Shown here in pieces: positions 1-34,145 of a stretch of DNA of 34,145 nt (position 1 is its first letter; each line of letters starts with the position of its first letter). The translations under genes were made by a program, and so were the position numbers. The stretch lies in contig JAGLLT010000025.1 in the NCBI GenBank assembly GCA_023140385.1, positions 1 to 34,145 of the forward strand. Reading direction: 5' to 3'. The notes under the pieces were generated by a model. The model was not told the DNA's origin. It did not search any database and saw only the letters and a program-made list of their open reading frames with translations. This DNA is from Candidatus Omnitrophota bacterium (GTDB lineage: Bacteria > Omnitrophota > Gorgyraeia > JAGLLT01).

Positions 1-396
1 ATTAAGGAGTTAGGCAGTCACTGCCTGGAGGATAAAAAGAAAGATTTTCTGAAGACGGTAAAGAAGGGCGATATTATCACAGCCGGCAGGAATTTCGGAT
101 GTGGTTCTTCGAGAGAGCACGCGCCTTTAGCCATAAAGGGCTGTGGGATTAGCTGTGTGGTGGCTGAGAGTTTTGCCAGGATTTTTTTCAGAAACAGCAT
201 TAATCTGGGCCTCCCGATATTAGAATGTGCCGAGGTTAAAAAGATTAAAGAAGGTGACGCGCTGGAGGTTGATTTGGATAAAGGCGTGATTAAGAATTTA
301 ACTAAAGATGAGACTTACAACACTCAGCCGTTTTCAGACTTTATAAAAAATCTGATTAATCAGGGCGGGTTGATGGCAACACTTAAAAAACCGTGA
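1..396 (+). CDS. leuD: 3-isopropylmalate dehydratase small subunit, C-terminal part (5' end outside window)
   Basis: Frame 1 is open from base 1: [49 protein letters not shown]...; the [14 protein letters not shown] signature is typical of LeuD; followed by leuB. Confidence 0.93.
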
Positions 397-432
397 ATAA
401 GAGTTTGAAGCAAACCCTAAGCACGAAGCACT

Positions 433-554
433 AAATACTAAACAATATCAAATGTTCAAAATGGGAAGTTCAAAACATAAGATTTAATGTTTGGAATATT
501 TGAAAATTAGAATTTAGGATTTATTTAGGATTTAGATATTAGGATTTAGAATTT
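433..554. repeat. Short, ORF-less copy of a hairpin-forming AT-rich element (left arm 433-455, right arm 524-554)
   Basis: 433-455 AAATACTAAACAATATCAAATGT is identical to 1648-1670; 524-554 matches 2119-2149 at 29/31; TCAAATGTTC (448-457) is 9/10 complementary to GAATATTTGA (494-503). Confidence 0.7.
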
Positions 555-587: not shown

Positions 588-1703
588 ATGACGATGTATA
601 AGATAGCGGTTATACCTGGGGACGGAACGGGGCCGGAGGTGGTCAGGGAAGGGCTGAAGGTTCTTGAGGCCGTTAGCGGGATGAAGGGTTTCAAATACGA
701 ACTTGTCAATTATGATTTCGGCGGTGAAAGATATAAAAAAACAGGCGAGGTTTTGCCTGAATCCGCCATTGATGAACTTAGAAAAGTAGATACTATTTTC
801 CTGGGCGCCGTCGGCCATCCCGACGTCAAACCCGGTATTTTAGAGAAAGGTTTACTGTTAAAGTTAAGGTTTTCATTAGATCAGTACATTAACTTAAGGC
901 CGGTTAAATTATATCCGGGCGTCTTAACACCGCTAAAGGATAAGGGGCCTGAGGATATAGACTTTGTGGTAGTACGCGAAAACACGGAAGGCCTTTATGT
1001 GGGTGAGGGTGAGTTTACCGATAAAGATACCGATAAAGAAGTAGCTATTCAGATTTCAAGAAATTCTTATAAGGGTGTTGAGCGTTGTTTAAAGTATGCT
1101 TATGAGTATACTTTAAAGAGAAATAAAGAAAAGAAACTTACTCTTTGCGGCAAGACAAATGTTTTAACATACGCCTGGGACTTATGGGAGAGAACATTTA
1201 ATAAGCTCTCCGCTAATTATCCCGACGTCAAGACAGATTATGCTCATGTGGATGCTACCTGTATGTGGATGGTTAAAAACCCCGAGTGGTTTGATGTCAT
1301 CGTAACGGACAATATGTTCGGTGATATTATTACAGACCTGGGGGCAATGATACAGGGCGGTATGGGAATTGCCGCGGGCGGCAATATCAACCCTGAGGGT
1401 GTTTCGATGTTTGAGCCCATAGGCGGCTCAGCCCCGAAATATACAGGCAAAGACGTCATTAACCCACTGGCGGCTATTTGCGCCTGCGGTATGATGCTGG
1501 AAAATTTAGGCGAAACAGAAGCCGCCGCCATGATTGAAAAGTCGGTTATGAAAGCCACTACCATGATGGACAGCATGTCAGCCGGCCGAATGGGCTATTC
1601 AACTCAGGAAGTTGGAGACTTAGTAGTTAAACATCTGGATAAATCCAAAATACTAAACAATATCAAATGTCAGAAACACAAAACTCAAAAGTATACGATT
1701 TAG
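588..1703 (+). CDS. leuB: 3-isopropylmalate dehydrogenase (isocitrate/isopropylmalate dehydrogenase family)
   Basis: IAVIPGDGTGPEVV, VVRENTEGLYVG, VTDNMFGDIITDLGAMIQGGMG, FEPIGGSAPKYTGKDVINPLAAI motifs; follows leuD. C-terminal tail after ...VVKHLD is encoded by repeat sequence. Confidence 0.93.
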   Translation: MTMYKIAVIPGDGTGPEVVREGLKVLEAVSGMKGFKYELVNYDFGGERYKKTGEVLPESAIDELRKVDTIFLGAVGHPDVKPGILEKGLLLKLRFSLDQYINLRPVKLYPGVLTPLKDKGPEDIDFVVVRENTEGLYVGEGEFTDKDTDKEVAIQISRNSYKGVERCLKYAYEYTLKRNKEKKLTLCGKTNVLTYAWDLWERTFNKLSANYPDVKTDYAHVDATCMWMVKNPEWFDVIVTDNMFGDIITDLGAMIQGGMGIAAGGNINPEGVSMFEPIGGSAPKYTGKDVINPLAAICACGMMLENLGETEAAAMIEKSVMKATTMMDSMSAGRMGYSTQEVGDLVVKHLDKSKILNNIKCQKHKTQKYTI

Positions 1704-2149
1704 AAGATAGAACATTAAAATTCGCGAGACAAATTAGGGAATTTGTTAAAAAGTTACCTAAAAATATAGCTAACATTGAAGACATAAAACAATTAGTGAG
1801 ATCTTCGGGTTCTGTAGGAGCAAATTATATTGAAGCCAATGAATCTCTGAGTAAAAAAGATTTTGCCATGAGAATAAAAATATCCCGCAAGGAGGTCAAG
1901 GAAAGTCGATATTGGCTGAGGCTTGTGGAGACCATGTCTAATTCTTTAGAAGAAGTAAGAAATGAATTAATTAGAGAAGCAACAGAGCTTATGAAGATAT
2001 TTGGTTCAATAGTAGAAAAATCAAAGTAAGTTTTGATGCTATAATTTAGAATTTTGCTTTTTTTTGAATTTTGCATTTGCTTTTGTTTAGAGCCTTTGAA
2101 TTTAGTATTTGAGATTTGTTTAGGGTTTAGATATTAGGATTTAGGATTT
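1648..2149. mobile_element. Four-helix-bundle (IVP-like) ORF flanked by complementary AT-rich arms; candidate non-autonomous or unclassified element
   Basis: Left arm 1648-1670 identical to 433-455; right arm 2119-2149 matches 524-554; AAATACTAAA (1648-1657) is exactly complementary to TTTAGTATTT (2101-2110). Confidence 0.5.
1667..2029 (+). CDS. Four helix bundle protein (23S rRNA intervening-sequence protein / S23 family)
   Basis: YDLEDRTLKFARQIREFVKKLPKN...QLVRSSGSVGANYIEANESLSKKDFAMRIKISRKEVKESRYWLRLV is the characteristic IVP/four-helix-bundle pattern. Confidence 0.9.
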   Translation: MSETQNSKVYDLEDRTLKFARQIREFVKKLPKNIANIEDIKQLVRSSGSVGANYIEANESLSKKDFAMRIKISRKEVKESRYWLRLVETMSNSLEEVRNELIREATELMKIFGSIVEKSK

Positions 2150-2205: not shown

Positions 2206-3216
2206 GTGAAGCAGTATAATATAGCCGTTGTTGGTGTTGGCGCGGTTGGTAAAGAGATACTTAAAACCTTAAAGACGAGAAACTTTCCGGTCGCGTCTAT
2301 TAAAGTGCTTGCCAGAAGCGCGCGTGAAATTGACGTAGACGGGCAGTCTTATATGGTAGAGGAAATAAGCCCTGAGTCTTTTAAGGGAATTGATATAGCC
2401 TTGTTTGCCGGTACCGAGGGTGAAAAGGGAGCTTCTGTTACTTACGCGCCTTCAGCTGTAAAAGAAGGAGCGGTGGTTATTGATAACGGGGCTGACTTTC
2501 GTTTGAAGGATGATGTTCCTTTAGTTGTGCCTGAAGTAAACGCGGCTGATGTAAAAAACAATAAAGGCATCATCTCCAATCCCAACTGTTCCACCATCCA
2601 GATGGTTTTAGCCCTTCATCCAATTTATAAGTTATCAAGAATAAAGAGAGTCATAGCTAATACTTATCAGGCGGCTTCAGGGGCAGGCCAGAGTGCTTCT
2701 GATGAGCTGTATAATCAAACCGCTGAATTCTTAGACGGTAAAGATTTAACCATTAAGGCCTTTAGTAAAAGAATTGCCTTTAATGTGATTCCCCAGATAG
2801 GAAGTTTTGGCGAACTGGACTATACTACTGAAGAGTGGAAGATGGTATATGAAACCCATAAGATTCTTCACGATGATAATATCAAAATATCAGCCACCAC
2901 TGTCAGAGTGCCGGTTAAAACCGGGCACAGTGAGTCTATATATATAGAGACTGAAAAACCGCTTTTAGTCGATGAAGTGAGGACAGCCTTAAACGCGCAA
3001 AGCGGTATCAAAGTGGTTGATGATATAAACAGCCTCCAATATCCTATGCCTTATGAGTCAGAAGGCACTGATGACGTCTTTGTAGGCCGCATTCGTAAGG
3101 ATCCTTATGTACCTGAAGGCCTATGGCTTTGGGTAACGGCTGATAACTTAAGAAAAGGCGCCGCCCTAAATGCCGTTCAGATTGCGGAAGCATTAATTAA
3201 TGATGGTCAATTTTAA
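2206..3216 (+). CDS. asd: Aspartate-semialdehyde dehydrogenase
   Basis: N-terminal Rossmann VGVGAVGKEILKTL, SNPNCSTIQMVLAL active-site Cys, RVPVKTGHSESIYIE, FVGRIRKD. Confidence 0.94.
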   Translation: MKQYNIAVVGVGAVGKEILKTLKTRNFPVASIKVLARSAREIDVDGQSYMVEEISPESFKGIDIALFAGTEGEKGASVTYAPSAVKEGAVVIDNGADFRLKDDVPLVVPEVNAADVKNNKGIISNPNCSTIQMVLALHPIYKLSRIKRVIANTYQAASGAGQSASDELYNQTAEFLDGKDLTIKAFSKRIAFNVIPQIGSFGELDYTTEEWKMVYETHKILHDDNIKISATTVRVPVKTGHSESIYIETEKPLLVDEVRTALNAQSGIKVVDDINSLQYPMPYESEGTDDVFVGRIRKDPYVPEGLWLWVTADNLRKGAALNAVQIAEALINDGQF

Positions 3217-8488: not shown

Positions 8489-8547
8489 CCATGCAAACTT
8501 CCTATAATTGAACTTGAAAGAAGTGCGGTTGCGATGTATTATATATA
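8489..8547 (+). repeat. Spacer repeat family B, copy 1
   Basis: 59 bp, 55/59 identical to 10856-10914. Confidence 0.75.
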
Positions 8548-10855: not shown

Positions 10856-10914
10856 CCATGCAAACTTCATATAATTGAGCTTGAAAGAAGCGCGTTTGCG
10901 ATGTATTATATATA
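10856..10914 (+). repeat. Spacer repeat family B, copy 2
   Basis: 59 bp, 55/59 identical to 8489-8547. Confidence 0.75.
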
Positions 10915-33868: not shown

Positions 33869-34063
33869 ATGGCGCAGAAAGTTGAAAGGTGTGGTATTAA
33901 AAAAGAGCCTGGCTATTTATACTTTATTGATAAAGACGGTGATGTAGCCAGAGCTAAAATGGCAAGAGGCGGTAAGAAGAAAGCAAAGAAGAAAGTAGTA
34001 AAGAAAAAAGTAGCAAAGAAAAGGGTTATCAGGAAAAAAGTAGTAAAGAAAAAAAAGAGGTAA
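33869..34063 (+). CDS. Lysine-rich small basic protein with short conserved-looking N-terminal module (histone H1-like tail)
   Basis: MAQKVERCGIKKEPGYLYFIDKDGDVARAKMARGGKKKAKKKVVKKKVAKKRVIRKKVVKKKKR; SD AGGGGAGGAGG. Confidence 0.8.
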   Translation: MAQKVERCGIKKEPGYLYFIDKDGDVARAKMARGGKKKAKKKVVKKKVAKKRVIRKKVVKKKKR

Positions 34064-34118
34064 AAAAAAGGACGGGTTCGTTTTTTAGGTGATTAAGAAA
34101 ATGAACCCGTCCTTTTTT
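34064..34118 (+). terminator. Rho-independent terminator
   Basis: AAAAAAGGACGGGTTC (34064-34079) perfectly complementary to GAACCCGTCCTTTTTT (34103-34118). Confidence 0.9.
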
Positions 34119-34145
34119 GTATGTAAATTGTAATCACAAGTGCGA

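Follow-up and report, generated by a model that had tools for sequence, protein, structure and literature searches.

The gap between leuD and leuB in the window (the whole stretch of DNA analysed, 34,145 nt of a Candidatus Omnitrophota contig) holds a 143-bp ORF-less, MITE-like derivative of an IVP element (412..554, +), one built around a gene for a 23S rRNA intervening sequence protein. An arm model built from IVP elements recognises both arms of this copy, which also retains a remnant of IVP 5′ coding sequence; the feature is very likely a worn, non-autonomous copy of an IVS-type mobile element.

Anatomy of the short copy and its full-length neighbour

The short copy lies between the 3′ part of leuD (1..396, +) and a leuB-type isopropylmalate dehydrogenase gene (588..1703, +), the host gene that separates it from a full IVP copy. 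Its left arm (412..445, +, 37.7 bits) consists of four AAAYHCK heptads followed by AAACAA; its right arm is inverted (521..554, +, 38.4 bits), and the two 34-nt arms are inverted repeats of one another. The element's architecture, its ends, the matching of the arms and the reading-frame remnant are all shown directly. This remnant, MFKMGSSKHKI* (452..487, +), aligns locally to the starts of IVP ORFs with a score of 24.2, compared with 14.1±1.6 (SD) for shuffled queries. The sequence after the ATG therefore points to an internal deletion rather than to a palindrome that never held a gene, and an internally deleted IVP element is the reading that we favour as likely. With all but the first IVP codons lost, the short copy is nearly one long palindrome, within which an inner hairpin (448..503, +) forms by pairing of TCAAATGTTC (448-457) with GAATATTTGA (494-503), including one G-U pair. 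The window copy is worn, folds only weakly (z -2.6) and is probably dead. No Rfam family reached its gathering score in a search of the window.

The full copy carries an IVP gene (1667..2029, +) encoding a 120-aa four helix bundle protein that matches both PF05635 (E 4.5e-16) and TIGR02436. Its right arm is intact (2116..2149, +, 38.5 bits), with an extra, weaker arm beside it (2083-2116, 18.7 bits), and asd follows downstream (2206..3216, +). Its left arm is truncated or degenerate: only 1641..1660 (+) fits the model, scoring 13.7 bits where the other three arms reach 38-39, and this stretch merges with the end of leuB, whose ORF extends to 1703. Elsewhere in the window, a 59-nt direct repeat (8489-8547 and 10856-10914, 93% identical) precedes two ORFs, and 15-nt repeats encoding a lysine-rich tail (33982-34056) are followed by a terminator-like inverted repeat (34061-34121).

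The annotation of the surroundings (the leuD end, leuB, the IVP gene and asd) is correct, and most specific claims of a preliminary description, made from the sequence alone, held. As it stated, 433-455 matches 1648-1670 at 23/23 positions and 524-554 matches 2119-2149 at 29/31. The short and full regions share an uninterrupted identical run of up to 23 nt; in 300 shuffles the longest such run averaged 9.4 nt and never exceeded 13 nt. The self-folding that it proposed for 448-457 and 494-503 was confirmed, with the one G-U pair, and the mini-ORF that it read from 452 is present at 452-487, the alignment score given above supporting its suggestion of an IVP N-terminal remnant. Its interval of ~120 bp (433-554) failed, the true arms at 412-445 and 521-554 giving 143 bp.

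The same arms enclose IVP genes across phyla

Searching bacterial and archaeal genomes with the window IVP protein gave at least 555 related stretches; the best 80 were retrieved, and their sources range over many bacterial phyla and include Methanophagales archaea. Dispersal across phyla is shown: full elements bearing these arms are present in 24 named phyla, including Archaea. When left flanks were aligned on their common motif, a sharp edge appeared 28 nt 5′ of AAACAA, together with four 7-nt AAAYHCK repeats, and the right flank proved to be an inverted copy of the left arm with an end just as sharp. Both arms were found in 63 full elements, mostly 448-485 nt long (median near 470 nt) and with a 34-nt TIR. 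The complete element consists of inverted heptad arms enclosing one IVP gene, with the ATG directly after the left arm. The arm model, learned from IVP (PF05635) elements outside the window's own phylum, detects the window short copy and tens of other short copies, and returned 0 arms in 197 kb of shuffled sequence. Two window-like elements, one from Thermodesulfobacteriota and one from Pseudomonadota, share 91.6% DNA identity over 462 bp with flanks that do not match; for any single case of such cross-phylum near-identity, mis-binning of a metagenome contig is conceivable.

The two arms of an element also agree with each other. Agreement at columns 6, 13, 20 and 27 is seen in 75-92% of elements, compared with 43-49% expected, and in freely varying arm columns it is no better than chance. 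Typed by the seventh base of the heptad, the clearly typed elements comprise 36 G/G, 20 T/T and 3 C/C pairs, with 0 mixed. Among 25 short copies, three covarying positions occur both as G-C and as U-A pairs, that is, with double changes, and folding predicts a hairpin spanning the whole short element that is strong in fresh-looking copies (z to -8.4). Arm agreement is what a paired stem needs, and this is its likely meaning, with shared descent of both arms contributing. Arm type switches at least 10 times on the IVP tree, which is weakly resolved, so that independent changes cannot be counted from it. Changes of R to I and D to I at IVP alignment columns 31 and 46 accompany T-type arms; these signals are weak, and the columns could be recognition residues or could simply carry phylogenetic signal.

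Short copies form an old family

In 59 genomes of the class, the arm pattern gave about 115 matches compared with about 9 for a reversed control pattern, many of them pairs 60-110 nt apart. These genomes yielded 47 distinct short elements, with length modes of 137 and 145 nt; the short form is an old family whose members differ little in size. Short and long forms lie side by side in many genomes; in some, such as G009, G047, G052 and G057, arms are present and the IVP gene is absent, which counts against the preferred reading. The window's own genome (G000) has 15-21 places matching the window short copy besides the copy itself and only four IVP genes, of which, on inspection of their flanks, the window's alone was seen to be flanked by these arms.

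Copies in this genome adjoin start codons, lying just 5′ of them with a constant right flank. Thirteen of them (L002-L010, L012, L014, L017 and L019), the window copy not among them, are also alike outside the arms, mostly over a right flank of ~40 nt, TTTAAACGTATAAAGGGTAAATAGTTTTGACAATACG; some also share a left flank beginning TAATGTCAAAAGTTGTATGA, and the outer ends of this composite repeat resemble inverted repeats (TATTGTCAAAA). These 13 copies may have multiplied inside a larger composite repeat carrying the short element, a possibility under which copy number overstates transposition because the 13 belong to one repeat. A search of the same genome for the outer repeat lacking the short element found none. 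As a separate observation, L010, L014 and L039 carry a further palindrome, CCTGCCTGCCGGCAGGCAGG or similar, inside the loop or an arm, which belongs to another repeat family.

Age and setting of the insertions

The leu-operon insertion is old, and orthologous sites are empty in related genomes. A genome of another genus in the same family (G002) has a short copy at the identical leuD-leuB position, so the insertion is most simply older than the split of the two genera, which we consider likely. In G010, G005 and G013, leuD and leuB are directly joined or separated by a short armless spacer, and the surroundings of leuB in the remaining class members examined yielded no arms. The place that the window IVP holds 3′ of leuB is taken in G002 by an IVP (L164) belonging to a different subfamily.

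Full elements favour a particular setting. The upstream neighbour is co-directional in 55 of the 61 with a clear upstream gene, and two co-directional genes flank 43 of the 63. The left end often lies a few nucleotides from a stop codon, whose last two bases belong to the element itself in ten instances. Target preference and selection cannot be distinguished as the cause of this placement; in the mechanism that we propose, the element would insert in sense just past stop codons within operons, doing little harm. A second leu site is occupied elsewhere: IVP elements lie between leuC and leuD in Planctomycetota (L088, L100, L103, L114 and L159) and Kiritimatiellota (L152), beginning a few nucleotides past the leuC stop and differing in arm type (T and G), which could reflect repeated insertion into a single site or turnover there.

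Other IVP lineages keep the period and change the heptad

Around IVP genes of other subfamilies in the class, the best internal period of the upstream flank is 7 in 24 of 32 cases. Their inverted arrays vary by locus (CGTATAG, CAGTGNN, CTCGTAT, GTTCAAG and others), and arms match far better within a locus than between loci (32.7 versus 17.8). Ten plasmid IVPs from cyanobacteria, Bacteroidota and Chloroflexota likewise show period 7, upstream in 9/10 and downstream in 10/10. One IVP gene of Planktothrix has AATCCCC on its flanks; this is complementary to GGGGATT, a type of heptad abundant in Nostoc (PMC4692102). We found no report linking IVP genes to intergenic heptads in the open-access literature searched, subscription papers and preprints being outside its scope.

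Evidence on mobility

A clean empty site is seen for a related element: on the Nostoc flagelliforme plasmid pNFSY05 an IVP element, bordered by an imperfect direct duplication of 14-18 bp, splits a gene whose counterparts in four other Nostoc records are intact. No target-site duplication was found in 61 window-like elements by either a fixed or a flexible search, and further Nostoc plasmid sites (L281-L284), examined as a second set, lacked clean junctions. On two cyanobacterial plasmids (L262 and L263) an IVP element lies between cas1 and cas2, which are adjacent in related plasmids; comparison with L277 and L278 makes presence and absence visible without giving exact ends. Plasmids searched for window-like IVPs gave only matches of 41% identity or less. 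Phages and viral contigs were considered as vehicles and rejected, no window-like IVP having been found in them. No element has been observed moving, and the enzyme that mobilises it is unidentified.

Proposed mechanism and rival explanations

Our explanation rests on three inferences of decreasing confidence. The paired arms, as a hairpin of RNA or single-stranded DNA, would be the recognised unit; the IVP would be a recognition or chaperone protein that served ORF-less copies in trans; and, least securely, an enzyme not encoded by the element would cut and join. The preliminary reading of a non-autonomous, internally deleted copy of an IVP element is supported, because arms learned only from IVP elements recognise both ends and an IVP 5′ coding remnant is kept, and because short and long forms coexist in many genomes and the leuD-leuB site is empty elsewhere. 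It needs limits: the short form is an old family and its insertion is old, not a fresh deletion of the adjoining copy. That description also called the element mobilised; mobilisation in trans by the IVP is inferred, not shown, and on present evidence we lean slightly towards doubting it.

The strongest rival, itself weak and unlikely, is that a Y1 (IS200/RAYT-like) transposase moves the element in trans, as with REPINs, the IVP being a passenger. In support, Y1_Tnp genes occur in all 23 arm-bearing genomes and all 11 Y1-free genomes are without arms (Fisher p = 0.004), and window-like copies lack target duplications. Against it, 20 Y1 loci inspected for flanking arms gave 0 clear arms, with one 20-bit match at best; the presence of a window-like IVP tracks arms across genomes about equally well (p = 0.002); and Y1 is common and may merely mark genomes rich in mobile elements. 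Both association tests assume that genomes are independent, which is not quite so.

We consider it unlikely that the element is a retroelement, its transcribed hairpin being reverse transcribed with the IVP acting like Avd. The likeness of PF05635 to Avd (PMC10053308), the strong sense orientation in operons and the one insertion with a 14-18 bp duplication favour this view. Against it, PF00078 reverse transcriptase was not found in the window's own genome (about 93% complete) and is absent from six arm-rich genomes in all (G000, G010, G015, G033, G043 and G051). Reverse transcriptase was rejected as a partner, being missing in most arm-rich genomes and showing no overall association with arms (p = 1.0).

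It is very unlikely that the short element began as a host RNA or DNA structure in operons (a leader, a terminator or an RNase III site) and acquired an IVP gene later. The element is palindromic and lies between co-directional genes, and copies in the window's own genome keep a constant right flank and lie just 5′ of start codons, as this rival would have it; against it, the short copy retains IVP coding sequence, the same operon lacks the element in most related genomes, and the same arms accompany IVP genes in 24 phyla. Finally, the possibility that the arms are generic A+T-rich intergenic sequence resembling the IVP copy by chance, which the preliminary description had named as its own refutation, is all but excluded: the sequence is indeed A+T-rich and repetitive, but shuffled controls yield no arms and chance matches reach at most 13 nt against the 23 nt observed.

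Returning to the IVS-type mobile element as the preferred reading, a bolder version can be stated. IVP genes would be the core of an unrecognised and very widespread mobile class whose ends are inverted heptad arrays, the heptad being free, its period of 7 and the agreement of the two arms fixed; the IVP would recognise the arms and move gene-bearing and gene-less copies; and many intergenic heptamer repeats (of cyanobacteria, Xanthomonas and others), together with rRNA IVSs, would be members or leftovers of it. We offer this tentatively, judging it a little more apt to fail than to stand, and the Xanthomonas and Beggiatoaceae cases lie outside our analysis. A single short copy is ordinary; its interest is as a pointer to a widespread and poorly described class of elements. 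IVSs in rRNA genes have been known for decades with their spread and the role of S23p/IVP unexplained, and bacterial heptameric intergenic repeats have been described without an evident mechanism. That IVP genes across dozens of phyla lie in operons with inverted heptad arrays regularly on either side, and have ORF-less satellites, makes both puzzles testable, perhaps as one mobile family, and a free heptad with a fixed period would, if true, be an unusual recognition rule.

Comparison with known systems

PF05635 resembles Avd of diversity-generating retroelements and belongs to the same fold family (PMC10053308). Unlike those systems, the window's genome is without a reverse transcriptase as judged by PF00078, and the retroelement criterion of such an enzyme in the element or genome fails, none being found in G000.

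Like MITEs and REPINs, the short element is palindromic, ORF-less, multi-copy and presumably moved in trans. It meets the MITE criteria of being short and ORF-less, of having TIRs in common with a gene-bearing relative and of occurring in multiple dispersed copies (partly one composite family). The criterion of a target-site duplication fails in the 61 window-like elements, one Nostoc relative having 14-18 bp, and we therefore call the element only MITE-like. The REPIN/RAYT criterion of a Y1 gene flanked by the repeats also fails (0/20 Y1 loci with a clear arm). Unlike either group, its arms are heptad arrays, its transposase partner is not known and its gene-bearing relative encodes an IVP, not a transposase.

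Heptameric intergenic repeats include GGGAATC and GGGGA(T/C)T in Xanthomonas and Nostoc (PMC4692102) and TAACTGA in Beggiatoaceae (PMC4679880). The heptanucleotides of Calothrix are another such repeat. The arms share with these their period of 7, their intergenic position and their multiple copies, and the Xanthomonas repeats often form inverted pairs; the sections of PMC4692102 and PMC4679880 that bear on the matter do not tie intergenic heptads to IVP genes.

A close likeness is also seen to the IVS in the 23S rRNA of Coxiella burnetii, which carries an S23p gene, is 428-444 nt long, has TIRs forming a 28-bp stem and heptameric direct repeats (GACAGAT) just 5′ of the S23p ATG, and is thought to have been acquired horizontally (PMC4990558). 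Compared with it, the window-type element has another heptad, many dispersed copies and ORF-less derivatives. Like rRNA IVSs, it combines an IVP/S23p gene (PF05635; in the short copy only a 5′ remnant) with TIRs that pair and heptads before the ATG; unlike them, the window element lies outside 16S and 23S rRNA genes, between the protein-coding leuD and leuB, and is therefore not classed as an rRNA IVS but described as an element built like one.
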